Of a DNA stretch of 64,000 bases, positions 1,821 through 61,069 are shown one piece after another. Source of the DNA: Camellia lanceoleosa (taxonomy: Eukaryota > Streptophyta > Magnoliopsida > Ericales > Theaceae); NCBI GenBank assembly GCA_025200525.1, contig CM045761.1, positions 77,033,551 through 77,097,550 on the forward strand. Reading direction: 5' to 3'. Under the pieces are notes generated by a model. It was not told where the DNA came from. It made no database searches and saw nothing but the letters and a program-made list of their open reading frames with translations. Within the stretch, counting starts at the first letter, position 1. Each line of letters begins with the position of its first letter. The translations under genes and the position numbers were made by a program.

Positions 1821-4421
1821 TCACACATTTACATTTCCACCAATACAAACTCTAATTTGATTCATGTTAAAAATAAAACCATTCGCAAAAAACTGGGCTA
1901 AATTAGATGATGACCTAGCCCAAATAGCAACTCTAGTTTTGATCAACTCAATAACTTCATCAAGGTTAGGATTTGAGTTCTTGAATTTACACTCATTTCT
2001 GAGCTTCCAAATAGACCACAACACTGCTAGAGGAATACTTTTCCATATCACTTGCTCTGGTTTCCTAACTTTGGCTCCATTCCACCAGAGAAGCACCTTT
2101 TCCACTACATCTGGCAATGCCCTAGAAAAACCCCACCACTTTAACATAGCAGCCTAGATGTGCCAAGAAAAAGGACACAGGACAAGGGCATGGCGAGCAG
2201 ACTCAGGCTCAGCTTTGCAAAGAACACAATTAATATCTGAATTGCTACTCAAGACCCCAATTTTTTGTAGAAACTCAGCAGATTTAATTTTATTCTTCCA
2301 AGCCAACCATCCAAAGAATTGAGCTTTGGGTGGAATAGGCTTGAACCACACCAACTTGCAACCCCAAACTAAAGAATCGAAATTATCAGAACAGAACTTA
2401 TACACAGAAGAGGTGGAAAACACTCCTGAGGATTTCGCAGCCCAACAAGGGACATCAGCAAGACCAGGTCTGCGGGAAGGAGCTGCTGCTAGTAAATTAA
2501 GCAATCTTGATGCTTCCAACTCCTCCCACTCATACAAAGCCCTTCTGAAAGGTATCACCCATTTTATTGAACTTTCTTTCAAATCAAAATAATGCTTAAC
2601 AAAACCTTCCTTAGTTTGAGCGAGGCTGCACAGACCAGAAAATTCTCTCTTGAAACATACATTCCCACACCACTTATCATACCAAAATCTGGTTCTAGAT
2701 CCATTCCCAACTTGAATCTGAAAATTCTGCTCAAAAAACTCAACCAAATCCCATCTCTGATCAACAATGGCAATGATGTCCTTCCAAATGCTAGAATATT
2801 TACTGGTGAGATTAAAATTAGGACTCCATTTGTCAATCCCAATTCTATATTTACTACAAAGCACTCTCCTCCAAAGAGCACCTGCTTCAAGACCAAATCT
2901 CCATCACCATTTGATGAGTAAACAAGTGTTCACCTCCCTAATTCTCCTAATCCCCAACCCACCTTGATCAATCCTTTTTGTGATCTCCTCCCATTTCACC
3001 ATATGAATTTTCCTTTTCGGATCAGAGCCACCCCATAAGAAAGATGCTTGAAGCCTTTCAATCTTCTTAGTTACTCCCTCTGGTATTCTAAACAGTGACA
3101 GGTAGTACACACGTAGGCTAGACACAACTGCTTTGGTCAATGTGAGCCTACCTGCAAATGATAGGAGCTTCCTCTTCCACCCTGCAAGTCTGGATCTAAC
3201 CTTCTCCAAAACAGGTTGCCATGTTGCTTTTCTTCTAGGATTGGCCCCAAGAGGTAGCCCAAGATACTTGATGGGCAAATTCTGGACAATGCAATTTAGC
3301 AGAGAAGCAAAGTTTGCTAGATTGTCATTAGGTACACCAACACCACACACCATACTCTTGTGATAATTAATTTTCAGCCCAAATAATATCTCAAAACACC
3401 TTAGAATCCTCTTTAGATTCACCACTTCATTCTCTTTGGCTTCACAAAATAGAATTGAATCATCTGCAAATTGTAAGTGAGAAATTAGAAGACCATTGGA
3501 TCCAACCTTTACACCTTTAATCAGACCCATATGGAGAGCCCTTGATAACAAGATGTTCAATCCTTCAACCACTATATTAAATAGGAAAGGGGACAAGGGG
3601 TCACCTTGCCTCAACCCTCTCTGTGGACAGAACTCCTCAGTTGGGGAACCATTGACAAGTATAGATAATTTCACAAAGGTCACACACTCTTTAATCCAAG
3701 AGATCCATTTGTGCCCGAATCCAAAACTTGAAAGAATGGAGAATAGAAATTCCCAATTGACAGCATCATTAGCTTTTTGAAAGTTCAGTTTGATGATTAA
3801 CCCCTTCTTCCTTGATTTCTTCCAACAATCCACTACCTCATTGGCAATCAAAACTCCATCAAGTATATTTCTACCACCTAAGAATGCTGATTGTGCCTCA
3901 TTGATAATTTCAGGTAAGACAGCCTTCAATCTATTAGTAAGTACCTTAGCTAGAATCTTATACAGTGAGCCCACCAAACTTATTGGTCTAAAATCTGCTA
4001 GATCCACAGAGTTCTTTTTTGGAATCAAAGTTATGAAAGGGTTATTGATGCCTTTTACCAGACAACCATTTCTATGAAAGTCCGGCACAAATTGAACCAC
4101 ATCACCCCTCATAAGTTTCCAAGACTTCTGAAAAAAGAATAAATTAAAGCCATCTAGTCCTGGAGCTTTGTTGCCATCACACTCTTTGATGGCTGATAGG
4201 ATCTCAAGTTCTGTAAACTCTGCCTCCAAACCATCAAACATAGGGCTATGACTGACAAGTTTGAAATCTCCATCCAGTGTAGGTCTGCATTTCCATGATT
4301 CAGAAAATTGCTTAACAAAATGTAATTTCACTTTTTGCCTCACCCTTAAAGGATCATCAACTACCTCTTCATTTTCACTGAACGAACTTATCATGTTCTT
4401 ATTCTGCCTGCAACTAGCCAT
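1821..4421 (-). pseudogene. LINE ORF2 reverse transcriptase, 5'-truncated, two stops
   Basis: Read on the minus strand, this is the C-terminal two thirds of a plant L1-type ORF2 protein. The RT domain runs from about 4300 to 3400, with NKAPGLDGFN near its start, QRGLRQGDPLSPFLF in the middle and the catalytic FADD box in LQFADDSILF. It is followed by the thumb (KYLGLPLG) and a zf-RVT-like C-terminal region (CVLCKAEPESARHALVLCPF). One reading frame runs from 4421 to 1821. It is broken only by a TGA at about 2904-2906 (context IKW-stop-WRFG) and a TAG at 2154-2156 (context SWHI-stop-AAM). Both fit single G-to-A changes of TGG. The product would have copied LINE RNA at the insertion site; this copy cannot be functional. 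Confidence 0.85.
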
Positions 4422-5189: not shown

Positions 5190-5915
5190 CAGATTTTCCT
5201 GTCGTGGCAAGTAAAGTTCCTTTGTAATGCCCTTTCAAAAAAGGTTCATCAAGAAATAAATGGGACAAAAAAAGTTGAACCCATGTACACAAGCATGAAA
5301 TGCAACAAACAACCCTTTGAAATTACTAGTATTCTGCTCAAATTCAACTCAAATCAACTTCCAGAATTCTTACTCGAAGCTTCATCAAGATACCATCGCA
5401 ACCAGTCAAACAACAAAATTGGTCACCATATAGCTAAACTTTTTCCTTTTCAACTCCAAACCATCCACGTTAATAACTAATAGATAAACCATAATTTGCT
5501 TTCATATATTTAATAACATCAATCGGATGAACCTGTTCAACGACCAAATTCGAACTCACCTTAGAATTCTTACAAGTATGAACATCAACTCCACAAGTGT
5601 GCTCATTATTTAAAATCCTAATGTATGAAGCAAAAAAAATCATTCACTTTTTCAACAAAAGCATGCACAGGTCACTTGCAACCCATTGAAGCTCTATTTT
5701 GCACATTCTGCCGTCATCTTTATCTTATCATTTTTGACATAGTTAAACTCAAATCCTTGTTCAATTGCATTCTTGCACAAAACACTATGAAATTGAACTG
5801 CACCACCTTCAAACGCTTGACCCACATGTTTAAGATTGTTTCCCCAACCAAAACTCAACAGTACCTTTTCTTCAAGTGCACAAAACTTGGCACTTGAACT
5901 TCTGGACAACAACAA
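5190..5915 (-). pseudogene. MULE transposase fragment (MuDR N-terminal region)
   Basis: On the minus strand, 5694-5915 encodes HVGQAFEGGAVQFHSVLCKN and then FNYVKNDKIKMTAECAK. This aligns in order with the N-terminal domain of the MULE transposase at 29347-30057 in this window (GQCFDGSANEFREVLCKYA, YVKNDSVRITIVCK). Lower coordinates (about 5215-5400) align at DNA level with the next part of that transposase, including the ACAAGCA segment and the histidine-arginine-rich region. The piece is full of stops and has neither DDE core nor C-terminus. It looks like a deeply decayed relative of the 24-31 kb MULE. Confidence 0.6.
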
Positions 5916-6046
5916 AATTGTTTAGCTTTCTTAATCCGAACAAAGTCTAATTGACGGAGAAAAGATTTTATTTATTTTATTATTATTTTTTTAATGTATT
6001 TTGGGTTTTGTGGGCATGTAATTTGAATGGTATTGTTTTTAATATG

Positions 6047-6994
6047 TTTTTTTTTTTTTTTGATCAGCAAAAAAAAAATTATTAATGAAAAAACATACAT
6101 TTCATATGAGAATACAACAATAAAGAGATGGAAGTGCAAAGAGCATCAAAGCGACAGTACCCCAATCCCAATTAGGTTGGCACCAAGGAGAGCGCTCAAT
6201 CATCTGTTAGCATAACCCCCAAAAGTTGGTGAGAAAGCAACATAACACCAAGGAGAATAATAAAAGAAATAACCACCCATCAACCTAACAGCCAACCCAC
6301 GACTTACCGCAACCTACACGATTGCAAGCTGCAAACCAAATCAAGCCTATATGCAGAATTACACTAGCTGCAGGTTAGACACAAACAATTACAGAGCAGT
6401 TCAAGGAAAGGCAAGAAGACCGTTACCACAATTCAAGCCTAAACTTGATGACAACATACCACTCGTCAAGGTCCACCCCTAGCAGACCACCACCCACGGT
6501 TTAGCTAGATAGTAACCTCAGCCAAGGCAGACTATAACCTGTTGAAGGTGATGCACAATATCATTGACTGAGTACAACACAACTGGGCAAGAGGATTTGA
6601 TCCACAAAGCAATCCTCACCTTGATGGAGTCACACAAACCTTCAATATCAACCTGAGCACTATTGAAAAGACAGTCATTCCTCTGCTTCCAGATGGACCA
6701 GAGCACAGCCAAAGGAACAACATTCCAGATTAACTTTAGCTGCTTTGATAATTTCCAACCAGGCCACCAATTGAGTAGGCTGCTCATAGACCCAGGCGTT
6801 GCCCATTGAATACCCACCATTTGATAATATTAGACCAGATCCTCCATGTAAAGGGACAAAGCAACAACACATAAAAACCACTTTCCGCCTCCCCATTACA
6901 GAAAATACAATTAACAGTTGAACCAGCATTGAGAACACCAATATTTTGCAGATAGCTAGATGACTTGACTCTACAATTTTTTCCATATCTCCAA
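6047..6994 (-). mobile_element. Second, short 5'-truncated LINE of the same family
   Basis: The T-run at 6047-6061 followed by TGATCAGCAAAAA is the minus-strand tail. The next ~120 bp match the tail region of the LINE at 169. Coding remnants match the extreme C-terminus of LINE ORF2. The left flank reads TTTTTAATATG (6036-6046) and the right flank TTTTTAAATATG (6995-7006), so a probable 11/12-bp target-site duplication brackets the element. It is under 1 kb long, a severe 5' truncation. Confidence 0.75.
6518..6986 (-). pseudogene. LINE ORF2 C-terminal remnant
   Basis: The minus strand encodes NVVPLAVLWSIWKQRNDCLF, which matches the equivalent segment of the first LINE (KSIPLAVLWSIWKLRNECKF, about 2030). 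The upstream zf-RVT part lies in another frame at 6675-6986, so at least one frameshift is present. Only the last ~150 codons of ORF2 remain, with no RT motifs. Confidence 0.7.
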
Positions 6995-8216: not shown

Positions 8217-9887
8217 TCACTTGAAGTCCATCCCTACAATGTCTCTGCAGATTTCGAGTTTGTCCCTCGAGACCACCTTTGTAAGCATGTTAGCTGGATT
8301 CTGATCTGTGTTGATCTTGATCAGTTCCAATAACTGCTTGTCCATCACTTCGCGTATCCAATGATACCGAACATCAATGTGCTTTATGCGAGAATGGTAC
8401 ATTGAATTCTTGCTCAGGTCTATGGCACTCTGGCTATCACAATGTACCTTGAACTTTTCTTGCTTTAATCCCAACTCTTGGAGAAACTGCTTCAACCACA
8501 ACATCTCTTTCCCAGCTTTCGCTGCGGCAATATACTCTACCTCAGTTGTGGATAAAGCAACACATTTTTGCAGCTTAGATTGCCAAGACGTAGCTCCCCC
8601 TGCAAAACTGAACAAAAATCCCGATGTAAATTTTCTACCATCAAGATCTCCTACCATATCTGAATTAGTATAGCCATCCAAGACTAGTTTTGCTCCTCCA
8701 AAGCACAAACACATTCTTGTCGTACCCTTGAGGTACCTCAGAATCCACTTGACTGCTTTCCAATGCCCTTTTCCTAGATTGGAAAGGAATCTGCTTACTA
8801 CTCCAGCAGCATGAACAATATTTGGTCAGGTGGACACCATTGCATACATCAAACTCTCTGCGGCGGATGAATAGGGAATAGCCTCCATCTCTTCTCTTTC
8901 TTTTGTAGAGGAGAGACAAGAACTCTTGCTCAGCTTGAAATGATTAGCCAGCTGAGTACTGACTGGCTTGGCATCTTTCATGTTGAACTTCTCAATCATC
9001 CGTTCAACGTACTTCTCCTATGACAGCCACAACTTCTTGGCTTTCCAGTCACACACAATTTTCATGCCCAAAATTTGTTGTGTAGGGCCTAGGTCCTTCA
9101 TGTCAAAGGACTGTGATAACTCTTTCTTTAGTGATCGAATTGTTGTGGCATCTTGTCCAATGATCAACATGTCATCAACATAGAGCAGGAGTATAATGAA
9201 GTTTCCATCGGGAAATTTTCTGACATATACACATTGGTTTGCAACAGTTCTCTTGTACTCATGACCCACCATGAATGAGTTAAACTTTTTGTACCACTGT
9301 CTTGGCGCTTGTTTGAGGCCGTAGAGACTCTTCTTCAATCTGCAGACTAAGTTCTCTTTCCCTTTGACTTCAAAACCTTTTGGCTGCTCCATGTAAATTT
9401 CTTCCTTCAGATCACCATGGAGAAATGTCGTCTTCACATCAATCTGTTCAAGTTCCAAATTCAAACTGGCCACTAGTCCGAAAACTACTCGAATGGATGT
9501 CATTTTCACAACTGGCGAGAAGATTTCATCAAAATCAATACCTTTCTTCTGTCTAAACCTTTGACAACCAATTGGGCCTTATACTTGACTAGCTTCCCGC
9601 TGCCATCTTTCTTCAACTTGAACAACCATTTGTTCTTCAATACTTTTCGACGCTGGGAAAGTTTTACCAAATCATAAGTCTGATTTTTCTGCAAGGACTG
9701 CATATATTCTTGCATAGCTTGTTGCCAGTTATTCTTCTCCTTATGATTCTGAGCTTCTTGAAAACTTTCTAGCTCCCCCTCACTAGTAAGAAAAATATAC
9801 TCAGAAGCAAGGTATTTTGATGACGGCTTAGACTCTCTTGTTGATCTTCGCAACTGTCGACTAACAGTCTCTGGTGGAGGGAGTTGT
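8217..9887 (-). pseudogene. Copia reverse transcriptase and RNase H, broken
   Basis: On the minus strand, the order is a linker with RRSTRESKPSSKY, the RT start KNKWLFKLKKDGSGKLVKYKA, the RT core VKTTFLHGDLKEEIYMEQP and SLYGLKQAPRQWYKKF, and the active-site box LLYVDDMLIIG (about 9170). RNase H at 8217-8714 has GFLFSFAGGATSWQSKLQK and VALSTTEVEYIAAAKAGKEM. A frameshift lies near 9506-9540, and more breaks between 8665 and 9018. It reads continuously from the linker at 11806-11999 once the nested solo LTR is disregarded. Confidence 0.9.
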
Positions 9888-11800
9888 TGTAGTGATCCCG
9901 GTTTCGATCCTTCTTTCATGTTTTGCCACTTTGACTGGGCCGGTCGGGGGTGGGGGTCCAGGGGGCAGCGCCCTGGCGAGCTTGAGGTGCAGCGCCCCAA
10001 AAACAAAAATGCAAAATGCATTCGAAGTTGCTTGTCCGCTCGAGCGGCCGTTTATGCACTCAAGCAGAGAACGTTTGGTTTTAGAAGTTTGACTTGTCTG
10101 CAAAAGTACTGGGTTAGTGTATTTGACCTTCAAGCAGGACTTTCCACGCTCGAGCGGACTATGTTATATCAGTTCATAAATCTGATATTTCAGATCACTT
10201 TTCAATCTTCTCTCTCTCTAAAACTCTCCAGAATTCCAGATCGGGAGCTTCTCTCTCTAGAAGTCATCTTCTCTCTTTGATTTCTCCAAATCCATTGGGA
10301 TTTAGACCTAAGTTCTTCACCAAAGTTGGTTATCATCTCAAGGGTTTCGTTGTGTGCGGTGAAGATCAAGTTTCGACACCGTTGATTTTGGGAGTTTCAT
10401 CTCATTTCTTCTTTAAAACTTGAGGTAGGGATTTTCTTAGAGTTATATATATATATATTTTTGCAAGATCTGTATGATTTTCGAAATCATCTTTCGATAG
10501 TTTTGAAAATTGATTGTTAATTCAAGAAGTTGAGTGATTTTGAAAGTGGGTTTGTCTCTTGTTCTTTTAAAATGATCTTATGAGTTTTGATCTTCATTGA
10601 TTGAAGAAAAGATGATTTTGAAAAGTTTTCTTTCAAAGGATTTGAGTTATATAGTTTTGGTGAGAAAACCTAGAATTTGGGAATTTTTTTTAAAAGAGAC
10701 TGAAAATCCATGAATGTTACTGTTGTATTTATTTTGTGTGTCAAAATAAATGGATGTTTGGAAAATTTCTAATTTATATTTATATAAATGATGAATTTTA
10801 GGGAATACGAGAGTTGTTGTTCATTTTGGAAATTATTGTTCAAAACGTTGAAATAATCTTGAAATGACTAATTGTTGAGGATACTTGAGAAGAGGGAATT
10901 GTGTTAATTCTTTGGATGATGAATTGGAATAAAATTATTTATATTCATCTTGTGTTATTGGCATAACAATTCATTTGATTACATTAAACTTTGAAAGTTG
11001 ATTTGAAAACTTACATTAAGAAAAGAATGTTAAGAAACAATTTTTCATGAAATGGTTTTGGGGTAAATACGTTGATAAGTCTTGATAGGTGGTGTACATG
11101 ATATTGAATAAGTTGGCCTGAGAGTCCGAGGTGAAAGACCGAAAACCTGCGCGGATAGGTGTGGAGCCTTCCAGTTAATACCGGTAAAAATGACAATTTG
11201 GTAGTACTTGCATAATCTACTTGCAGACACCAACCTAGGTGATTACCGGAGTCATATTTACCGCCCTTGAAATAAATTGTTAAGTTTTGAACAATTGAAA
11301 TTGCATGACATCATTGAGCATGATAGTTTTCAAAAGATGAAAATGTGATTTATCTTCAAAAAGAGGCATAGCATGGCATGTGCATTTCATCTCTTGAGAC
11401 TTGTACAAAATGTATATACTTTGTTAAGGATTTTCTACTGAGCTTTATGCTCACCCTACGGGATTTTGGTGCAGGAAAAGATGTGATGATGCCGCCTAAC
11501 TAAAGGCCAGGAAATGTGTGTTGAGAGTACGAGACTCTCATATTGCTGTGACTCTGTGTGTAAGCCAAGGGCTGTATGTGTATGGGTTTGAATAACCGTT
11601 TTGTGTAACCAGACTCAAGCCTTGGAAACTTGTAAACCCTTGGGGTATTTATTTGTTATTTACTTATTGTTGGATTAATGTATTGTTATATGAAGAACTA
11701 TTGTACCATATAATGTAAGTTTGGAGATTTATATTCGATTTTCCTTGAAAGAGCCATGATTGTTGTATTATCATTTGGGCTATAAATTTGGGGCATTACA
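9888..11800. mobile_element. Solo LTR nested in copia pol, probably Ty3/gypsy
   Basis: A 1,913-bp non-coding block begins TGTAGTGATCC and ends GGGGCATTACA, so its ends are a short inverted repeat (TGTA.TG...CA.TACA), as in many plant gypsy LTRs. It interrupts the copia linker. Flanking 5-mers are GTTGT (9883-9887) and ATTGT (11801-11805), a TSD with one mismatch. The copia reading frame continues across the two flanks. There is no primer site, polypurine tract or coding domain, so this is an LTR left by recombination between two LTRs. Orientation is uncertain; GAGCTTTATGCTCACCC at about 11440 resembles the 3' part of Tekay-like LTRs and favours plus. Confidence 0.75.
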
Positions 11801-11805
11801 ATTGT

Positions 11806-13382
11806 GGCTCTTCCTGCTCAACACTCTCTGCTTCTGGATCTTCTTCTTCTGGAAATCCATCTTGCAATTCTACATCATTGGTTGCATGCTGCGGTAGCGC
11901 TTCTTCATCAGTAGCATGCTATGATGGTACAAGATTGGGAATAATTTCTGAAACATCATCAACTTTGGGTTTGGCTGGTTACCCGAAGTCTTCTAAGGTC
12001 TAGCCTTCTTGAAACACCACATCTTGGCTTCGAATGACCTTCTTGTTTTTCGAATCCCACAATCTGTATGCAAATTCTTTATCTCTATAGCTAATAAAGA
12101 TGCATGGAGTGGCTTTATCATCCAACTTCTGTTTGTGCTGCTTGGATACATGTACAAATGCTTTGCACCCAAACACTCTCAAGTGAGAGTAGGAAATCTC
12201 CCTTCCAGACCATACTTCTTCTAGAATCTAAAAATTCAGTGGAATGGATGGCGATCTGTTGATCAAATAGCAAGTAACACAAATAGCTTCTCCCCAAAAT
12301 GGCTTTGGCAGCTTCGCCATTTTAAGCATACATTTGACCTTCTCCACAATGGTCTGGTTCATTCTCTCGGCTACACCATTGTGTTGTGGGGTTCTAGGAA
12401 CAGTCTTCTCATGTTGAATACCGCAAGTAGCATAATAGGCTTCAAACTCCTTTGACATGTATTCGCCTCCATTTTCTGTTCAGAGACACTTCAGCTTCTT
12501 TTCAATCTCCCTTTCCACCATGGCATGGAATGTCTGGAAATGCCGGAACGCCTCAGCTTTGGTCTTTAGGACATAAGCCCATACCTTCTGTGATGCATCA
12601 TCAATAAACGTCAAGAAGTATTTTCTGCCACCGAAAGATTCCACTTCTCTGGGACCGCAAACATCAGAGTATACTCTACTCAACAACTTTGATTGTCTTC
12701 TAGATGATGAGTAAAAAGTGACTCCATGATGCTTCCCAAACAAGCAGTTGTCACAAGGATTCAATTTTGCATCTTTGGCAAAGGGAATAAGAGACTTCTT
12801 TGCCAGAATTTGTAACCCTTTCTCACTCATGTGACCCAGCCTTTTGTGCCACAAATTTGGTGACGCCTCATCTTCTGTTGCGTTGAGGCTATCTGAATTC
12901 ACCTCTACATGAGTCTTATATAGTGTGCCAATTGCTTGTTCTCTAGCTACCACCAGAGATCCATTTTTCAACTTCCATATGCCTTTGCCGAAGTAGTTCT
13001 CATAGCCTTGTCAATCTAAGGCTATCCCTGAGATAAGATTCAGGCGTAAATCAGGAACATGCCTGACATCTTTCAACACCATTGTACACCCAACTTTGGT
13101 TTGGATGCGAACATCACTGATTCCCTCAATCTTTGACAAACTGGAGTTACCCATCTTTACTGTACCAAAATCTTCAGCTTGGTACGTACTGAAAAACTCT
13201 TTCCAGGATGTAGCGTAGTAGGAAGCTGTTGTATCTACCACCCACTCGATGTCATTGTCTGACATATGCAGGCATTCTTCTTCTTCAATAGAGAATAATG
13301 CAATATCCTCCGAGACGGTAACTGTAGTGTTCCTATCTTCGGTCTTTGGCTGTCTATTGCCTTGTTTTTGTTCTCCTTTCAA
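11806..13382 (-). pseudogene. Copia protease and integrase, broken
   Basis: The protease region (13011-13382) keeps WVVDTTAS where copia proteases usually have D-S-G, so the catalytic triplet is altered. The pre-integrase segment shows LWHKRLGHMSEKGL and CDNCLFGKHHGV, the HHCC zinc-binding pair. The integrase core has aspartates in YSDVCGP and FIDDAS, and the glutamate in NGVAERMNQTI (12228-12458). The integrase C-terminal part (GCKAFVHV, RDKEFAYRLWD) is at 12000-12182. Stops separate the segments. At 11806-11999 the acidic linker towards RT ends exactly at the nested solo LTR. Confidence 0.9.
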
Positions 13383-27972: not shown

Positions 27973-30559
27973 CTATATTGGCTCTTTACATGTCTTCATA
28001 TTATGGTTGCCCAACTTTCCGCACCGACCACACTGAATACACTGAACTACTTCGTCCCTTGATGGAATCCTCTTTCTTTTGGGCCTACCTGGCGGATGCT
28101 TAACTATTGGCGACATAATCATGTAGTCAGCTGTTGTGGCAGATGGCTTGTCCATAGTTGGAATAGGATATTTCATTCCACTGGACGATGATTTGAATGT
28201 TTCAATGTGAAAAGCATGGTCTATCGATTCATGAATGTCTAGCTCACTATTACGAAATGCGATGACGGCATGGGAACATGGGAACTTGTTTATCTGCCAC
28301 TGAAAACAAGAACACGTTTATTTGGCCACATCCACCAACACTGACGGATGAGAGTGGACTTCGTACACATTGTCATTAGCCTGGCTAACACACCACGACC
28401 TGCTATCATTGTATGTCATTGCTAGTTTGCTATCCCATTTTGGACATATTACACCGGCTCATTTTGTGCATCTAATTTTGCGTTCTACCATCTGCTCCAT
28501 GATTTGCCCCTTACCATATCAACCAGTCTAGTGATAGGAAGATGTCAAGCATCGCTAACCCAAATGTTAAATGACTCAGCAGCGTTAGAACACATTTCAC
28601 CGTACCGTTGGCCCCTGTGAAATAACCAATATGGTTGCAAACAAAGAACAGAAATAGCAACAAACACACAGCTAATTAACACAACACATTGGCCAAAGTG
28701 TAAACTACCTGAAATATGCGTTGGCCTAGTGTTTGGGATGCAAGTCTTTCTTAAAATCATTAATCTCAACCGGGCTGCACTTCTTTAATACCTCCAATTT
28801 CTCGTTGAAACAACTAACAGTGGGTGCGTAAGCACATTCGCGTAATTTGCACAGCAAGCCAATTTTGTGTGAAGCATTAACGTATTTTATTCGGTCTTGT
28901 AATTTCATTTGAAGGTGAAACAAACAATATCCATGATGTGCAGAGGGGAATATGTTGGGCATAGATTGCAACAACCCAATGTGGCGGTCAGATATGAACA
29001 TAAGCGTCCAGACATCACCGATAACTTCTTTCAAATTCCGAAGAAACCATTCCCAGTTAGCTGAATTTTCGGAATCAACAATAGCAAACGCAGCAGGAAA
29101 CAAACCTACAGACATAGCATGAAACCATATGGTATAACAAAAATATGTTATAGTCAAATTTGCAATGTGTCATTTTTTGTAACTATCTGTACAATGCATA
29201 TGTGATCAACTATAACAAACCTGCAATAAGCATGTCAATATGTTTTAAATTACCATTTGCTGTCAATCTCATGGCATCCCATTAGTACATGGGGTAATTT
29301 TGCGGCAAATTTACATTGTAAACATATTAGATGGGCCACCATGTGACTAGTTACACATGGGACAAAAAAATAAATACACAACGGTACCTTGATTTTTGTC
29401 TTTTTCGGTAGCGGCAAGCAAATTACCCTTGAACCTGCCTTTGAGGAATGTTCTGTCCAGGAAGAGCAAAGGCCGACAATAATTGAACCCATCTATACAA
29501 GCACGGAACGATATGAAATACTGAACGAACCTCTCACTTTTTTTATCAACTTCATGAGTAATGTAACTGTTTGGATTTTTTTCCATAATTGATTCCCTGT
29601 GCCACCTGAGTTGGTCGAACGACATAGTGTGATCCCCATAAACTTCATCCCTCACTTTCTCGACACCCAACCATGCTACCCGGTAACTAATGCCCAATCC
29701 ATAGTCCTTTTTTAAATCAAACTCCACATCTATGGGACGTACCAACGGCTGTCTACGCACCCGATCTACCACAACAGAAGACACCAACTCAGACCCCATA
29801 CACGGGTTCCTATAAGTCGACACTGCTGCACCACAAGTATGCACACCATCAAACCTCTTAACACATAACACCCCGCTCAATGGTAGCACCCTCGCATGAA
29901 CTGACCAAGCGCAACCCATATCCGCTGCAAACTTGCACACTATAGTAATACGAACCGAATCATTTTTAACATACTTGAATTGGAATCCATGTTCCACAGC
30001 ATACTTGCATAGAACTTCACGGAATTCATTGGCACTTCCGTCGAAACATTGACCCACATGGGTAATCCCATACGCCCGTTAAGCGGACAAAAAATATCTT
30101 TGACCTATTAGGGCAATATGTTGGTAACAAATCCGTTTCATCTTCCACATCGAAATTCAGACTACCATGGGAACTCACACCATCCTCTGCGTAATGAACC
30201 ACCCCAACATTGCCCCCCGCCCTAACACTTCGTGCCTGAATTAGGACATTAATGTGATTTAACCCAAATGACTTACCAAGACACAACATATTTTGAATAT
30301 TGTCATCGCTATCCACCTTAAACTTCTTATACCCGGAAACGTCAAACAACATACACACCGCCCCCAGTACCAAACCATCAAATTTCCTGCAAATATGATC
30401 AATCAACTGTGCGAATGTCAACTCATATTGCAATCGAACAATAACATTGGTTTGTCCGTACGTGCACACCAACAATATACCATCCTTCATACCTGCAACA
30501 CCAACATTTCTGATCCGGTTACGTAAAATACAACACAACAAAATGCATTTCAGGTGCAT
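27973..30559 (-). pseudogene. MuDR-type transposase, multi-exon, broken
   Basis: The order on the minus strand is as follows. An N-terminal PB1-like segment (30026-30559) precedes the MuDR N-terminal domain (GQCFDGSANEFREVLCKYA, YVKNDSVRITIVCK). The DDE core has Asp in FLDRTFLKGRFKG, Asp in MFISDRHIGLLQS and Glu in CSNAAESFNIWV. A SWIM zinc finger (CSCFQWQINKFPCSHAVIAF, about 28250-28313) and a CCHC knuckle (CGRCGKLGNHNMKTC) complete the family layout. Introns at 29106-29387 and 28615-28708 keep GT/AG borders and phase. Stops include TAG after HPKH, TGA after WVSDA, two more before the SWIM finger, and frameshifts near 30060 and 28510. It would have cut and joined the element ends in the nucleus. 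Confidence 0.85.
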
Positions 30560-32050
30560 ACACGTAAAACCAACAATACATATGTGATATTAACATCGTC
30601 GAACACACCCACACACACAAAACACACCGGCGTAAAAACCCAGCAAAAACAATACCACACACCAACCTAACAGCGGCACAAAGCCAACATCATCCACACA
30701 AAAAAATCAGTATAAAACACCAACACAATAAAAGTACTAACTTGTCACAATACAATTGGCGTCAACAGCACCTGATTAACCACAATAAACACCGCCGGAA
30801 ATGAACACATCCACGGATTACAGCCAACGATGAAAAATATGGCCAAAACCCCAGACAATATCCCCACACTCTCTCTCCACAAACAAATGAGATCAATGTT
30901 AACCAATTAACCCGGACTCCCCCACGATAACATTTCCTTATCCCCATAAAAACAGAAACAGTCAATTAGGAAATAACAATCACATAAAGGATATACATGT
31001 AAAATCGAATAGCATCCAACCCATCTAAATAAATCTTACCAAAAAAAAAAAAAAAATAGGACTAACTGGTGTACAAGAAAACTCTCAGGACCAAATGATT
31101 TAACTTTCCTCCATATAGAACTTATGAGTAATTTTTTCTAAGAAGTTTCTAATTATATTTGAATTATACACTGCTGGAAAATTCATTTTTAGCGGCGTTT
31201 AAAAAAGGCCCCTAAAAGTATTAAAAACGTCGCTAATTCTTTTTGCGACGTTAGTATCAAACGCCGACGATGCGACGTCTATAGCTTTATGGTGTTTGAG
31301 AAACGTCGTTATAATAGTATAGGCGGCGTTTTTAAAAACACCGCCAAATGTCCTACCCTAACTGTACTATGACGCCACCATGACATTTAGCGACGTTTTT
31401 GAAAACCCCGTCATAGACATTTGTACATTTTAAAAATTTAGCCGTTGGGGTGGGATATAGTGACGTGTTTTAAACGCCGCCATAGCCTTTTTTTAATTTT
31501 TAAATTGTGCTAATTTTATATGGTTGAACAAAAAAATGCCTGTCAAACAATTATTAAGAACTAATAATTGATGTTTATTAAAATAATAAATAAACTAAGC
31601 TGGAAAACAAAATTAAAAATAAGAAACAAAATTAAAGTTTGAACAATTCATGTTCAGACTTTAAATACATCAATTAAAATCAAAATGGTCTAGAAGTGTA
31701 ATTTGCCCAAAAAAATTAAAAAGGAATAGAAAGCACACTAATATGGCTTATAATATTAAAAATACCACTTGTCTTCCAACTATATCCAAAGATGAGCCTA
31801 AACTATATGCAACAGATGATACATTTGGAACCATGCAGTACACTATAATCCAATTAAACAAGATAAAAAAAATTAGAGGGGGGAAAAAAGTAAAAGAACA
31901 AGAACAAATAAAAAAAGCTTCATCATATTCCCTCCAGTGGCTTTTTCCCTCTCCTCTCACATAAATTCTACATGTAGCAACTTCATATCCATCATGATAA
32001 TCATTCGGAGTTAAATAGCTTCTCACAATCAAAGAGAGTTGGGTTTCAAA

Positions 32051-33761
32051 TTATTCTGTCTTGTCTTCTTCCAAATCACCGTTCGATACCCCGTTGTTTC
32101 CACTGGCTACTAATCCGACTTCAAATGGACTTCGAATATCCTTTGAAGGCATAAGAGATGGTTTTATGAGTGTCAAAGTATTATCATCCTTGTCAAACTC
32201 TTCACTTGCTTCTCCTGAGTAAATATAGCTGCCACATGTGAAAATATTCAATGTGGAGACAAGAAAATAATTGACAACTAATTTTTATAACATAGAATAA
32301 GCCCTCTGCGAGGAGTTTGCAGCTAATTTCTATGTTCCACCATAAAATTGATCGACAGTTGGGGAGATTTTTCCTGGACACTCAAGTCTCTATGAGTTAT
32401 TATGACCTAATGTGACAACAATCATAATACTCACAAATTACGACCTCAAGAATTAGTGATTAGAATAACAATATCATAAATTACAGTCCAATTGTCTAAA
32501 AAAATACCATAACACTTTGTTTGGATTGCGGGTGAGAAAAGAAATGAAATGATTGTGGTCAAACATTTAGGTTAGAAAAGAAGAAATTATTGTATTTTCT
32601 TACTATTATGTTTGGATGAGTAAGACAACAAAATAGGTGATACACGGATATGGGTGGGATTTCTTTTCCTTCCTTCGTATTTTAATGGGCAATCTTGGTA
32701 TTATAGAAATACAATCAATCAGTTTGCTTATCACCAAATCACGCAAGTTTTAGTGAGAAATGAAACCCCTATAAAATAAGCTCTCCCCCTCCCTCTCCCT
32801 CTCTCTCTCACACACACACATAACTTATAAACCAACACAAGAAAAGAGTTTTCTCTCTCCTCATTTCTAATTATTTCTCACCAAATCATCCCATCCAAAC
32901 AGGCTGTAAATGAACGATGATGATAAAAGAATGGTGAATTATAATTGCCAGATACACATGGACATTGTATGAATGATAATGGTCATTATAGAGTGTAAAC
33001 TCTCTTTTCTTCACTAGTTCCCCTTTGAAGCAAAAGGGAACATACGTGCTAAAGACATCATAATAAAAAGCAGTGCACACAAACATATATGCATCATATA
33101 ACTAGAAGCAAGGGTTTGTACCGCATTGAATTCTGAGATGGTGCCCAAAGAGCACAGATGACGCAGAGCAGAGAGAGAGATAGGACTTGCCAGAAGGCAG
33201 GGATGATCCAAGCTTTCTGCCATTGCTCATTATACACTTCCGATGACTTGAAGTAAAGCTGCACAAACAATGTTATACTATAGTGATTACATTGCCAAAG
33301 CTGAAACAGCAAATGACTTAACAAATGGTTGACCATATCTTAAAAACTTCAATGAAAGAAATTGACTGCCAATTGCAACAAATTTTAACAAAGAAGTAGA
33401 TAATGACAGGCCTTTAAACCATTTTTTTCTCCACTGGGATTTTCATCTTGGTCCTCATTCTTGCATTCTACATGGTTCAAATGCTAATAATTTTGTTTGG
33501 TCTCAGCCAGACACTATGTTATTGAGACCTTTTCATCGCAGAGGATGGTTTTTAACAGACCCTTTGTGCTTTCCACTGTCGTATAGTGGTTCATGTTAAA
33601 CACTTGACATTTCTTAACACATTTGAAGATTAATTAAGCCTTATTTCCCAGACAAGAAAAATTACCTCATAGCATATCCAACCTACGGACACAATAACAG
33701 CTATTGCCAAAGCATTAGTGAACTTCCTGTAAATATCTAGTTTTGCCAACATGCGTCGAGC
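32051..33761 (-). pseudogene. Captured C-terminal exons of a lung-7TM receptor gene
   Basis: Three exons lie on the minus strand. Exon A, 33666-33761, contains LDIYRKFTNALAIAVIVSVG. Exon B, 33122-33258, contains QKAWIIPAFWQVLSLSLLCV and CALWAPSQNSM. The last exon, 32051-32228, contains EEFDKDDNTLTLIKPS and ends DLEEDKTE-stop. Each intron has AG and GT borders, and splice phases match (0, then 2). The frame is open to a natural TAA. This is the end of a plant lung-seven-transmembrane-receptor/GOST (TMEM87/GPR107-like) protein: the last two membrane helices and acidic tail. Such proteins work in the Golgi/endomembrane system. The N-terminal luminal domain and first helices are absent, so this is a fragment, not a gene. 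Confidence 0.8.
32515..32903. mobile_element. Probable hAT-like MITE in a captured intron
   Basis: CTTTGTTTGGATTG at the left pairs with CATCCAAACAGG at the right, and GTGAGAAAAGAAATGA pairs with TAATTATTTCTCACC further in. The ~390-bp non-coding block lies in the last intron of the captured lung-7TM fragment. TIRs of this form are usual for hAT-type MITEs. No exact 8-bp target duplication was seen. Confidence 0.4.
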
Positions 33762-35276
33762 CTGCCACATCACATCAATAAACAAATGTTACTTCGGTGG
33801 ATTTTTTTAGAATTCAGGCAGCAATACTTATATCACATATCAATAAAAATAGCAACGTAGGTGTCATTTCAGAATGCAGCGCAACATAAAAGGAAAGTTT
33901 TTTCCCCTCTCTCTGCAGACAGTGAGGCCAATTGAAGCTCAAGCTTACTCCTATAAATTCCAAGGCACAAACAAAAAAATATGCACAAAACAGTTGATTC
34001 ATTACATTGACATTGGCACTATAAAACAGTTGATTCATTATCGTTGCCCCGATTACTGCCTAATCTAGAAATAACTAGAGCAAATCATTGTTTTATTTCA
34101 TTTGAGATCAAATCAGAAATCAGCTTACTACAGAGGGCATGCCAAGGTTCAAACTCATCTATCATCGACACAAATAACATAATAAATAAATAGGGAATGT
34201 GGTTATCACTAGCACTGTATCTGATTGTAGACATGTTTATAAGGATTTATGGAGTTCATAATTATAGGAGTATTCTACTACCAGTGTCAATCTCCACCAT
34301 GGTTTTAGATAACATTTTAGAAGTTTTTTGTTTTTTGGCTTTTTAAGAGTTTTCTTTCCAAATGTTGGAGTCTTTTAGTTATACTTTGTTTCAATTCAGT
34401 TTATTTTACATTTACAGGAATTAAAATGCCCACCAAGCACTTTTTTATTAAGTAGAACTTATCTTCACATTTTTTTTTTCTTCCTATAGAGTATGTTTAA
34501 CCTGATTAAAATACCATATGATATATAGACTAATAAACAAAAATGTTTGACTCCTATTGTTAACAGACAGGAGGGACAATCAAATATTTTTACCCAATGC
34601 AGTTGTTAAATTTGATTAGTGCAAAGGTTGTAGATATTTCCTTCGATTACAGCTTATATACATACAAAGGATTGATTTCACAAACACACACTCGAGTGGA
34701 ATACAAATGAAGGAAGCTATTGTTTGACAATAACACAACTAATGGCAGGTGACTGAGTACTAAAATAATTTGAAAATGAAAATAAAAGTAAGCATATACA
34801 TAAGACAATTATATATAGGAGGAAATATGTGTATCCTGTGTTACATAAAGTCAAAATGAAAATACAACAACACAATTCATCAAGCATTCACATTCAATTT
34901 TCTGACAAGCCCATACTACGGAGGTTAGAGTTACAACCACCAATCAACAAGAAGATTTATTCCTATCCCAGTAACAATGAATAAGAAAAATTGTCAACTA
35001 CAGATTCTAGAACTATAATAGGAGTATGGACATAAATAAAGATATATCAACTACATATTCTAGAACTTAAAAATAACATAATAATAAAGTAAAAACTCCA
35101 GGTTATCCTTACATGAAAAACAGGTAAAAAGCAATGCAAAAGTAGTAGCAGCAACATAAAATAATATACATTTAATAGTAGGATTGTTCTTGCTGCAGTT
35201 GATTGTGGTGGTGGTCAAATAAATAAACAGAAGTACAAAAGGCACATAGATATCTAGAAACATCAAACAAACTTAC

Positions 35277-35362
35277 ATTTGCCAGTCGGAAGGGACAAAA
35301 CTTAGGCTTCCCCCTTCTTCCATACTTGAGCAAATATGCCCTTTCTTGAGAGCAGTAATGGC
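35277..35362 (-). pseudogene. Captured exon of a PRAF (PH-RCC1-FYVE) gene
   Basis: An 86-bp exon on the minus strand is bordered by ACAACAG at its 5' side and GTAAGT at its 3' side. It encodes ITALKKG, then in the next frame AYLLKYGRRGKPKFCPFRLA. This is the opening of the PH domain in plant PRAF/RCC1-FYVE proteins, an unusually conserved stretch. A single missing base after the GG of the glycine codon separates the two parts, so the exon would be 87 bp in an intact gene. Only this exon of the large gene is present. It is embedded in the CACTA between the START and lung-7TM fragments, on the same strand. Confidence 0.8.
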
Positions 35363-37259
35363 CTGTTGTAAAGATCAGCCAAAAACCTAAATTAAACAAG
35401 TTCAGCACTTTTGCAGAAAGAACTACTAGCTATCTACGTTCAAGGTAAAGTCACAGTAATAGGTTAAAGATAAAAAAAAGTAGCAAAATTTTATTCAGAT
35501 GGTAGGGGAAAATTTGTAGTTACAAAGACCGTAGATGCAGGAGGAACTTGAAGTTATATTGTATATCTTGTAAAATCTTCATGGTTACTCATGCAGGTGA
35601 TAGAGCAAATATCCATAGGATTTTAACATCAACCTCCAAGTAACATTATTCTATAAGAGGCTTAAGTTGTATAGTAGCTCACCTATCTGATCATAACCCA
35701 AGATAAGATCTAACCACGTAGTGAATAAATAGCTTCTCAATCATGCTGAGGAGGGTGTACATTGAATTGTTGAGAAATTTGAGATTAAAAAAAAAAAAAA
35801 ATTCCTTCTACCTTCACTCATTTTTCCCTCCTCATATCAATTCACAAATGATAGTAGAATCACAAACAAAAACACAATCAAACACAAGCTATTTCATTAA
35901 TTCATTAACCATTCTACAAAACCTGTGCATTCCAAAACCAAATGTATAAGCATACAACAATCACTTAAGCATTAAAGTAATGCTAAAATCAGTACACACT
36001 ATGCTTGTCATCACTTAAGCATTAAAGTAATGCTAAAAATATGCCACCAAAACACATATTTCCTCTAGTGAAAAGGGTGATGTAGATATTGTTTTTTTGC
36101 AAAACAAGGTACAAGAGAAGCATAAATGAACAACAATGAATTTGTAACCTTTGTTTATTTTATGTTATCTAGTTTTAAATGTCAAAACCACCTTTCATAA
36201 GATAATATATCTTTTGTCAAATAATTTGTAAGAACCATTAACAAAACTAGAATCCTGATCATTGCAAGTAATATTCTTACTTCAACAAATCCTAAAATTA
36301 AATTTTTTGACAGAGAACAAAGATCTCATTTTATATATATAAGACAACATTATAATGAACTTGACCCATCCCAAACTCGTAAACTAATTATTAAATATCT
36401 TATCTCAAATCATCTAAGACCATCTCCAACCACTGTTGGAAATCAAGGTTTTAAATCATTTGAACAACATTAAGGAGTCACCAAAATAGGATGAGCCAAA
36501 ATAGGAATCTGAGTGCACCAAAATTGGAATATGAACATTTGAGCCAACTTGATATTCATATTCCCATTCACAATAACCACATTCACACACAAATCCTTTT
36601 CCTACCATATCAACCTAGTTCACCAAAATAGGATGCCCCTCCATCTTTGTCTCCAATGCACTTTTTCCATTTATCTTTGTTCCCTGAACTTAAAAACATG
36701 TATACAATTGGGGGGAGAGAGCGAGAGAGAGAGAAGTTGATATCAGTAATCATAAACAATAGAAAACAATTATCCATAAACAGTTAATTCTCAACAAAAG
36801 ACTAATTCTCAACAGGTAATTATAATAGTGAAATGGAAACATAAGCTACAAAGACTAATTCTCAACAAAAGAAAATTTCATAAAGAAAACAATCATCAAT
36901 CCATATTGATAAAGAAAACACATATTATTGTTTAATTAGTCAAGCTGTGTAATCCATCCAGTTTTCCATAGAAAAACAAAATGGATGCATGTGTGAACTG
37001 TGATTATTATCCCATATCCATATCCAATTCAATTCATATTTAATATAAGAATTTTTCTTCTTTAAAATTTATGTCCCCTATTACTAATGAAAAACTCTAA
37101 TTAAACTACAATGCAAATGCCAAGACTTGGGCCTACTTTTCCAGCACTTGAAAGACAATACCTACATCAAACAAAGGTCAAAATCCATGTAAGTAATTCC
37201 CACAGATTTCTCCAGCACATAGAAAATACACATCTTACAAAGTCAAGGTCAAATTGTAC

Positions 37260-37918
37260 CTCAAGATCATGGCGCCAAGCTTGATATGTCAAGTTTGAGG
37301 TGGAGTGTCCCATCTTACTCTGCCACTCCATTTTCCCACCCTTGTTTTCAATAAGTTATCATAGATTTAGTTGCATTATTAACAAATAAGGTTTCAGAGC
37401 ACAGTCGCTAATCAATTCAAGACATCAAATTGCATACAATCACCAAGAAGCCTTATATCAAAAACCCTAAATTAATTCTCATAACAGACACACAAACAAA
37501 TATGCATATATAAATAAAGTCATTAATAAACAATTCGATAAATGAAAAACCAAATTTCAAAACCGTTCTCACCTGACGTCACTGCCACTTTCAACCAGCT
37601 GTGCCGCCGCCGTTGGAGAACCGTCCTTTCCCTTCCAAATGAACCTGGGCCAAAGTCTCCGACCAACCGAAAATGCCGGGAAGGCGAGCCAGAACCTCCG
37701 AGCCCTAAACCCTGGCGGTAGCAGTCGAGTGACCGGAGCTTGGAGCGGAGACCGAGATAGAGCAGACCGGTCCACCTAGGACGCCAGGACCGGCCGATAA
37801 CAAGGCCGATCATGATAGCGAGCCAAATCGGGACTGAGGAGAGCAAAACGTCGAGGAATGTCTCGGCGAGGCCTGGGCAGTGTAGAAAATAGATAAAATC
37901 GAAGAAGCTCTGCTCCAT
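37260..37918 (-). pseudogene. Captured 5' exons of a START-domain lipid-transfer-like gene
   Basis: Exon 1 (37573-37918, minus) begins at an ATG at 37918. It encodes a signal-anchor-like helix (VPIWLAIMIGLVIG) and SWRPRWTGLLYLGLRSKLR. After a frameshift it continues LPPGFRARRFWLAFPAF in another frame, ending at CAG-GTGAGA. A second exon (37260-37340) encodes MEWQSKMGHSTSN and YQAWRHDLE, and ends GAG-GTACAA. This matches the N-terminus and START-domain onset of the plant PCTP-like family (Arabidopsis At4g14500/At3g23080 type). Only the start of the START domain is present and the frame is broken, so no lipid-binding protein can result. Confidence 0.75.
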
Positions 37919-38460
37919 TATCGATCGGTGTCTATACAGATATGTGTATGTACATGAGAGAATCGATAAATATACATATATGTATATGTATACACAAAGT
38001 GGAAGAGATAAGGAGATGAGGTGCTAAACTATGGAAGCTTGCATAGATGGTGGTGGCGGTGGAGCTTTGAAATCGAGAGAGAGAGAGAGAAATCGCTCTG
38101 AGATGAAATCAAAGATGAATCTCTGAGAGAGAGATCTAGAGAGAGAATCGAAATCAGGGTGGCAGTGCAGACCGATCTGAATCGAAATCGCGATGGCAGT
38201 GTAGATCGAGCTGAAATCGGTGAATCTGTGAATCGGTGAATCTCGCTACCTCGCCGGTGCAGATGGTGGTGGAGGTGGGGCTTCGAAATCGGTGAATATG
38301 GGAGATTCAAAATAAGGGTTTAGAGAGGATTGAGAGAGAGGCGACGTGAGGATAAGGGTTTAGAGAGGATTGAGAGAGAGAGGTGACATGAGGATTCAAT
38401 GTTTATGTCTGAAGAGTTGAGGGTTTGCAAAGGCTTTATTCTCAGATTCAAAATAGCACG
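37919..38460 (-). promoter_or_regulatory. GAGA/TCTC-rich putative promoter of the Pack-CACTA
   Basis: Between the right subterminal repeats and the ATG of the START exon lies DNA rich in TCTCTCTC (minus strand), with TATATACATATATG-type sequence at about 37940-37990. It sits where a CACTA promoter/leader would be and all captured exons point away from it. It could also be the original START-gene 5' UTR carried along. This is inferred from position and composition only. Confidence 0.35.
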
Positions 38461-38633
38461 TGTGATGTACCGCATTTGGAGGCGCTTTTAAACGCCTGTG
38501 ATCATAAAACGGTGTCATTTTAATTAAATAAATATGCGATGCTTTTAAAACGTCGTTAAATATTAATAAAAATGACGTTTAAGAAAACGCCGTTAAAAAA
38601 ACGTCGCAAAAACCCTTATTTTCTGTAGTGATA

Positions 38634-59530: not shown

Positions 59531-61069
59531 ATGACAGACGACATTCCTCATGATGATGCTCCTCCCGAGGTTCCACCTGCACTTCTCCACCCTGCCGAGA
59601 CCATGGAGCCAAAGGTTGCTAAGGTCGGTAGGGCGGCAAAAGACATTAACGGCCAGGGATTGGTACCGCGAGCTTTCCTCCAGAGTCTGCAACCTTGTCA
59701 ATGAGGCTGGCTTTGGCCTATTCTGCACTAGCCTTACATGCCATATGGCCAACCGAGCCTTACTCGGAGCATTAGTGGAAAGGTGGTGGGACACCACCAA
59801 TTCCTTCCACCTTTCTTCCACTGGGGAGATGACGATGACCTCTTATGACTTCTTGATGATCACAGGCTTAGGAGTAAGGGGGATCCGATCCCCTTTGATA
59901 TGGATATGGGCTAGTAGGAGGTGGCCTAGGCCTACCTGCTTAGAGCGAGCCCACCTTTATCTGAGCGACCATGGTCAGATACAATTGGTTCTCCGAGCAT
60001 TTTCGCAAGAGTCAGCCCAAGACGTAGGAGGAGATAGAGCAGTATGGCTAGGGCTTCTTGATGTTCCTTTTTGGTACCACCTTGTTCGTGAACAAGTGGA
60101 ACACCATGGGTTTGTACCTACTGAGCACCCTTGTGACCTTGCCCTGGGTCCGATTCTACGACTAGAGTGGAGCCGGCCTGGCTGCACTCTATGGCTATAT
60201 GAGTTCAACTTCCCGTATGAGGGAAGAGTGGGTTGGAGGCTACTGGAGAGCCTGGGAGGTATGCACTGCGACTTCAATTCTGTTACTTATGCTTTTTTCT
60301 TTGAATTCTCTGTTAAATATATATTCATGCACTGTGCTTTCTGCTTTGTACTTTCTATTTACTTTATGGTCATGCATTGTTGATCTTTTCTTGTAGCTGT
60401 GGGTTTATGCCTACTTCTCGGCCCTTGCTCCGGAGTAAGTAGAGGAGATTGCTCCGACTGTCCCCTACTTGCGGCGATATGATGGCCGGTGCCGGCGCTG
60501 GCACTAGAGCCGCAACGATATGGCATTCGCCTTCTACCACCGATACATTGATACAATGGTTGCCCACAAGGTAACCCAAAACTCACAGTTATTTCTGCTT
60601 TTATTTTCATTGCTACTATTCTAATTTCTCTTGACAACTGACAACAGCTAACAACTCGTACATCCTCTTATCTGCAGATCACCTAGAAGCCCTGGGCGAC
60701 GATGCCAGACAGAGTTAGAGACCAGTACGCCAGGGCTCGAGGCACCTACCAGTTTCGAATCTTACAAGAGGGTTTCGAATCTTACAAGAGGGCCCTTTTT
60801 GCCGAGCCTGGTTCTTAGGCAAGCGCTTTGTACATCAGATCGTGGGCTTGCTTACACTAGGTGTTCCTATGCCTCCTCCAGCATCTATGAAGACAGCTGA
60901 TAGCCTCCCAGCCGAGGCTGTTATCCAATTCATGGTAGGATTGGATAATGACTATTTCCGAGGAGACGGTGATTATATGACCTTCATCCGGACTCATCTT
61001 ATGTCACCCCTGATCGGAGTTCGTGCGGGCGACGCAGGAGACATTCCTTTGGTTGGTGAGGCTACTTAG
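59531..61069 (+). pseudogene. Plant mobile domain (PMD) gene, transposon-associated, broken
   Basis: The ATG at 59531 opens an acidic leader. After a frameshift near 59680 the PMD begins: LVERWWDTTNSFHLSSTGEM and DFLMITGLGVRG. A second frameshift leads to YGYMSSTSRMREEWVGGYW and RAWE, then a GT donor at 60259. Exon 2 (60397-60570) has LWVYAYFSALAPE-stop and IAPTVPYLRRYDGRCRR. Exon 3 (from 60678) has a TAG where TGG is expected (IT-stop-KPW), an ~18-bp tandem duplication around TCTTACAAGAGGG, then FLGKRFVHQIVGLLTLGV. PMD proteins related to MAIN/MAIL1 and PP7-like phosphatases occur both as host genes and in transposons. This degenerate, repeat-flanked copy is surely transposon-borne. Confidence 0.75.

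Follow-up and report, generated by a model that had tools for sequence, protein, structure and literature searches.

A non-autonomous Pack-CACTA element of Camellia lanceoleosa with fragments of three unrelated host genes and exon modules that recur in its family

How does a single transposon come to carry exons from three unrelated host genes in a single orientation, and does such a patchwork amount to a gene? The question is raised by a 64,000-nt stretch of the 3.0-Gb genome of Camellia lanceoleosa (C4:77033551-77097550; hereafter the window), in which an initial annotation, made from the letters alone, had recognized one 7.46-kb element with CACTA-type ends. The element occupies window positions 31169-38630 (7,462 bp) and is a non-autonomous Pack-CACTA with fragments of three unrelated host genes in one orientation. 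It probably arose by the joining of related elements of one Camellia family, and, with coding exons that show no constraint, it would serve as mobile raw material for chimeric genes.

Ends, cargo and class of the element

The element is framed by ATA on both sides: ATA abuts CACTGCTGGAAAATTCA at 31169, TTATTTTCTGTAGTG abuts ATA at 38630, and the termini are inverted in the CACTA manner (CACTGCTGGAAAATTCA at the left, CACTACAGAAAATAAGG read inward from the right). Subterminal repeats were found in both arms, namely the direct pair D19 and the inverted pairs I5 and I11. Searched genome-wide at up to three mismatches, the left-end pattern gave 149 + 165 matches (314 in all), against 0 + 0 for the same pattern read backwards. 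The arm sequences led to copies elsewhere, with at least 45 scored matches to the left 501 bp and at least 50 to the right 351 bp, the window's own counted. Two other elements with both ends have identical 3-bp flanks (ACA/ACA on C6, AAT/AAT on C5), so that ends and matching flanks, whose failure to co-occur elsewhere had been named as a refuting result, do go together at other loci. The parts of the element are as follows; percentages are identities to the locus named.

31166-31168: left target-site duplication, ATA
31169-31692, plus strand: left arm, with the CACTGCTGGAAAATTCA terminus and subterminal repeats (314 pattern copies in the genome; at least 45 scored matches)
31693-34562, minus strand: 3' part of a GOST/TMEM87A gene (lung seven-transmembrane type) with introns and four interruptions; 88-96% to C15:129091608-129095389, host gene GOST_TM
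32051-32228, minus strand: GOST last exon, through the native stop codon
33122-33258, minus strand: GOST exon B, native splice sites retained
33666-33761, minus strand: GOST exon A, native splice sites retained
34564-34691, plus strand: 128-bp segment, 98% to C14:123410789-123410916
34695-35654, minus strand: PRAF-type gene fragment, largely intron, with internal deletions; 91-97% to loci on C11 and C5
35277-35362, minus strand: PRAF-type PH-domain exon, splice sites retained, one base deleted relative to C11
36071-36429, plus strand: further segment, 95% to the C11:7512682-7513008 region (locus L031)
36453-36911, plus strand: sequence sited about 430-460 bp inside the left end of other family members (L059, L063)
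36923-38048, minus strand: 5' part of a START-domain gene (exon 1, partial intron 1, end of exon 2, partial intron 2); 92-95% to C9:167997891-168000184
37260-37357, minus strand: START exon 2 remnant, 5' splice site retained, 3' splice site lost
37573-37918, minus strand: coding part of START exon 1, with ATG and 5' splice site, frame-shifted relative to the host (346 versus 350 nt)
38049-38630, minus strand: right arm, with GA-rich leader (putative promoter), subterminal repeats and terminus; about 79% to the right ends L069 and L070, and at least 50 scored matches to 38280-38630
38631-38633: right target-site duplication, ATA

The donor-locus search placed the closest loci of the three gene fragments on C15 (GOST), C11 (PRAF-type) and C9 (START), and the comparison of captured with donor sequence gave the identities listed. 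The lung-seven-transmembrane identity proposed for 32051-33761 held: Pfam matched GOST_TM in the exons at 33666-33761 (1.9e-9) and 33122-33258 (8.4e-14), and the product of the C15 locus is a seven-transmembrane protein of the GOST type, which carries the annotation Transmembrane protein 87A (P0002). Within the 6.8 kb examined at this locus there was no element left end, and a right-end-like match inside the gene, with six mismatches, was taken as chance. The middle fragment comes from a gene that we take to be of the PRAF type. Its exon lies in an alignment to C11 with 130 of 131 columns identical, the other being a single-base gap, and the C11 locus contains further exons and a BRX domain match in Pfam; for the PH-domain label, Pfam gave weak matches only in the exon. 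The exons of the C9 locus match an annotated Camellia START-domain protein (P0085). The START assignment stood, but exon 2 is a remnant whose 5' half is gone and which lacks its 3' splice site because host positions ~5327-6484 are missing from the element. START exon 1 and the PRAF exon are frame-shifted relative to their host loci; GOST exons A, B and last retain native splice sites and frame.

Introns are partly retained, and capture was therefore from DNA rather than cDNA, as had been concluded from kept intron borders, although the acceptor of START exon 2 is lost. Capture from cDNA was rejected on the same ground. The exons do all face away from a GA-rich stretch, but this stretch is the element's own right arm and not a captured START promoter: it occurs also in the right ends L069 and L070 without adjoining START sequence, and the START DNA ends 130 bp above the ATG. 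The putative promoter would thus consist of the transposon's right-arm leader and the 130 bp of START DNA that precede the ATG.

We give practically no credence to the reading that ordinary host genes happen to lie side by side here and that the ends match by chance. The closest host loci lie on separate contigs (C9, C11 and C15), for which reason neighbouring genes were rejected, and chance ends are at odds with the 314 pattern copies against none in the reversed control and with the matching flanks of two other elements. No open frame of at least 140 aa lies inside the element (frames of at least 50 aa were inspected by eye), and it is without a transposase of its own. Between its ends lie GOST, PRAF-type and START fragments with known host loci; the whole chimera has one sister copy, and each arm has many copies. 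By these features it is a Pack-CACTA, and the initial description as a single CACTA-ended element with cargo from three unrelated genes is borne out.

Modules shared with relatives and the origin of the patchwork

The sister copy (C4:186773285-186778051; 4,767 bp) contains the same chimera without the PRAF part: it has the left arm and GOST to the equivalent of 33627, jumps to 36316, and continues into START and then the right arm; each arm has small gaps. Because the window element and a relative on C6 both have GOST sequence beyond 33627, the sister probably lost 33628-36315. The C6 relative (C6:141026378-141032091; L055, L022, L011) is a 5,714-bp element with ACA/ACA flanks, and it combines GOST with pieces matching an annotated C. 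sinensis chimera (P0079); this combination may therefore be older than the split of C. lanceoleosa and C. sinensis. The relative on C5 (C5:186075996-186086259; L063 with L052), 10.3 kb long with AAT/AAT flanks, contains START exon 1, reductase exons and a nested copia-like element.

The two outer modules recur separately. The GOST junction (C15 position 5281-5282) is common to six of the seven left-end loci L002-L008, which were fetched by left-end similarity, and the START junction (C9 position 7185) is common to 11 sequences (L035, L036, L038, L040-L044, C238, the sister and the window). PRAF sequence adjoining START occurs also in C238, C12 and C13; in the C12 and C13 relatives the terminus is a different one (CACTACTAAAAAAA), and a right end of the window type was not found within the DNA examined there. 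The initial three-gene description covers the host gene fragments, but not the other segments between them, one of which is left-arm interior of family members; the combination itself is a single member of a larger family built of modules. This segment, 36453-36911, lies 433 bp inside the left end of L059, which matches 36453-36640 (88%) and 36636-36911 (97%), and partly 456 bp inside that of L063, which matches 36453-36676 in part. Because the GOST and START junctions recur separately and 36453-36911 sits inside other left ends, modules of different relatives, together with left-arm interior, appear to be combined in one element.

Two further observations concern related sequences. Two PRAF-START relatives (L053 at position 1081, L057 at position 4006) have another common terminus, CACTACTAAAAAAAACACTT, pointing to an exchange of modules among CACTA subfamilies. 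In a repeat family whose copies are 96-99% alike (L025, L026, L027, L029, L032), a piece of PRAF intron occurs together with a U2AF35-like fragment.

Hybrid Pack-CACTA elements from neighbouring insertions have been proposed in the accessible parts of two reports (PMC8903248, PMC13317346), and a fusion of elements would fit this model. Neighbouring insertions would lose their inner ends and then move as one unit by means of a transposase encoded elsewhere; the element would grow as neighbouring copies are joined and shrink through deletions marked by short overlaps or fillers. An alternative is that the patchwork was built within a single element through repeated rounds of abortive gap repair, that is, template switching to unrelated loci after excision, without fusion of two neighbours. 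Junctions with short overlaps or short fillers, and several internal deletions in the GOST, PRAF and START fragments, are what gap repair would leave; gap repair alone accounts neither for the separate recurrence of left and right modules among other elements nor for the presence of relatives' left-arm interior in the middle of this one, and we consider it unlikely.

Coding state of the predicted chimera

Joined through their native splice sites, START exon 1, the PRAF exon and the three GOST exons give a single 280-aa frame from the START ATG to the GOST stop, so that a chimeric spliced transcript, as initially suggested, is possible on paper. Transcription would run leftward from the right arm through START exon 1, the cargo and then the GOST last exon; in the spliced message START exon 1 would be followed by the PRAF and GOST exons, with the GOST stop and 3' untranslated region (3'UTR) at the end. 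All four exon-skipping versions tried break the frame. The public annotation at this locus is a 243-aa chimera (P0001, 'Transmembrane protein 87B'), of which 243/243 residues match the predicted protein; the model is without PRAF and without the first 8 residues of exon A.

One open frame through five exons, and a gene name in the public annotation, are what one would expect of a working host gene whose 280-aa or 243-aa protein is made and kept by selection. The coding differences tell otherwise. The three GOST coding exons differ from C15 by 4 synonymous and 13 nonsynonymous changes, and GOST exon B and the last exon differ from the sister by 2 synonymous and 16 nonsynonymous changes; there is no sign of protein constraint. 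Stops lie within START exon 1 of the sister, and the frame is preserved in 2 of 9 indel-phase combinations. A working gene is thus highly improbable. As the coding exons show no constraint, the most reasonable view of the element is that of mobile raw material from which chimeric genes might be made.

Several points weigh against the account of a Pack-CACTA that arose by joining of elements and offers raw material for genes. The sister has flanks TAT/TAA, not an exact match, and those of L070 are also mismatched. The GOST remnant is found in none of four elements taken from the left-end pattern list (L065-L068). Transposase_21 is abundant in the genome, and no transposase was linked to the family's ends among the 150 scored of 2827 candidates. 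No unfused tandem pair or other precursor was seen, and the 280-aa frame is weak evidence, given the 2 of 9 phase combinations that preserve it. With these points included, we still hold the joining of related elements to be the likely origin.

Elsewhere in the window, frames were named by eye. Just left of the element, minus-strand frames at 28726-30559 resemble pieces of Mutator-type transposase; those at 2154-4421 and 8217-12971 (minus strand) resemble LINE-type reverse transcriptase and broken copia-type polyprotein pieces; and a 277-aa plus-strand frame at 59550-60383 is plant mobile domain protein-like.

Recurrent terminal exons, cargo orientation and known systems

The exons at the two outer sides of the cargo also recur in annotated proteins. 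A search with the GOST last exon (E <= 1e-8, with a length limit that put full-length GOST proteins outside) gave 21 proteins, 16 of them from Camellia, the window's own included. The exon forms the C-terminus in 14 of the 16 Camellia proteins, several of which are near-duplicates (e.g. P0122, P0123); P0090 and P0130 continue past it. Its Pfam partners are MIF4G, carbonic anhydrase, caleosin, eIF-6, WRKY, ARMT1-like and P450 domains, with HAD hydrolase and kinesin below the Pfam cut-off and no Pfam partner domain in P0121, P0124, P0127 and P0130. P0096 (COG6) and P0097 (LSM and P450) likewise end in this exon. START exon 1 (E <= 1e-10) gave 28 proteins, 12 from Camellia, and in 8 of these 12, as read by eye, it is fused to other sequence: PRAF in P0091 and P0153, pyridine-nucleotide reductase in P0154-P0157, GOST in P0001 and a partner not assigned in P0092. 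Compared with 24 DNA sequences, 23 fusion proteins matched 21 (all except L065, L066 and L067), always on the minus strand in left-to-right orientation; this set is biased, because gene predictors join sense exons only.

DNA frames give a less biased view of orientation. Five captures beyond the window, 5/5, are oriented as the three window genes, for which chance would be 1 in 32: a PP2A catalytic subunit (PDB search, 3e-5) and His_Phos_2 (Pfam 2.7e-4, below cut-off) in L066, HCO3_cotransp in L008 (8.6e-6 and 6.2e-4, below cut-off), a class II tRNA synthetase in L070 (4e-15), and a U2AF35-like piece in L025/L026, weak in Pfam and linked to an element end via L042 alone. The Pfam comparison covered 23 sense-strand frames and 27 opposite-strand frames, with a best E of 0.044 among the latter; the frames of L066, L067 and L002-L008 were picked by eye, and the PDB search that yielded PP2A was made with the sense frame only. 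For six elements the choice was made by an end, without regard to cargo: L065-L068 came from the list of left ends, and L069 and L070 from that of right ends. Two of the six (L066, L070) have tool-supported host fragments. Peptides labelled DRM2-like and HAD-like (L066), kinase-like (L002) and LRR-kinase-like (L070) found no support in Pfam and were not counted; the L002 peptide had no PDB match. Because frames were partly picked by eye, the sense bias of captured cargo is a lead, not proof. It may stem from founder modules, from transcription or from selection against antisense cargo, and the data do not separate the three.

These observations lead to a bolder proposal, which we find possible but lean against: the Camellia CACTA lineage as a two-sided exon trap, in which cargo is exchanged by fusion but kept sense, continually yielding spliced fusion genes with a common N- or C-terminus across the genus. 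Its two sides would be the following.

Right arm: leader and captured START first exon (start codon, 5' splice site)
Left arm: captured GOST last exon (3' splice site, stop, 3'UTR)

Soybean Tgm-Express1 is the direct precedent for a CACTA element that carries exons of several genes and has them spliced; it is described in the accessible text of its report as a non-autonomous 5.7-kb CACTA element with exons and introns of five unrelated host genes and splice sites kept, whose chimeric transcripts, shown by reverse transcription PCR, start at the promoter of the gene harbouring the element (PMC1947982). The Camellia element resembles it in class, in similar size and in its cargo from several genes, and differs in being known from sequence alone, in having its putative promoter inside the element and in first- and last-exon modules that recur through the family. 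Pack-CACTA and Pack-TYPE elements share CACTA ends, 3-bp duplications, host gene fragments and the lack of transposase, and those of maize often contain several loci; recurrent terminal-exon modules and sense cargo orientation are not described in the available portions of these accounts (PMC8903248, PMC13317346; maize loci, PMC8903248). Chenopodium CACTA elements likewise contain captured host gene fragments, but, in the sections available, they contain sequence coding for transposase, upstream of which there is in most cases a single captured gene (PMC8978399). Maize gene-capturing Helitrons, by the accessible account, acquire several gene fragments stepwise but are of another transposon class with other termini (PMC3288121). 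The searches of open-access literature showed no paper on the present family or on any Camellia Pack-CACTA, in keeping with the initial remark that this three-gene combination seemed undescribed.

The single copy thus belongs to a known kind, a Pack-CACTA like Tgm-Express1, and the unusual part is the recurrent first and last 'bookend' exons. New here are the single 280-aa frame with its public 243-aa chimera, the annotated Camellia proteins in which the same START or GOST exon is fused to many other genes, and the five same-facing captures in relatives. For a multi-gene Pack-CACTA, relatives, forms that are in part intermediate and candidate host genes can all be aligned within one genome, and the fusion model of gene capture is therefore testable. 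Named Camellia genes, for example C. lanceoleosa 'Transmembrane protein 87B', 'Kinesin-like protein KIN-13B' and 'CYP90D1', may be transposon cargo. If the bookend-exon reading is true, many of the fusion proteins annotated in Camellia would trace to one transposon family, which would be a natural device for exon shuffling.

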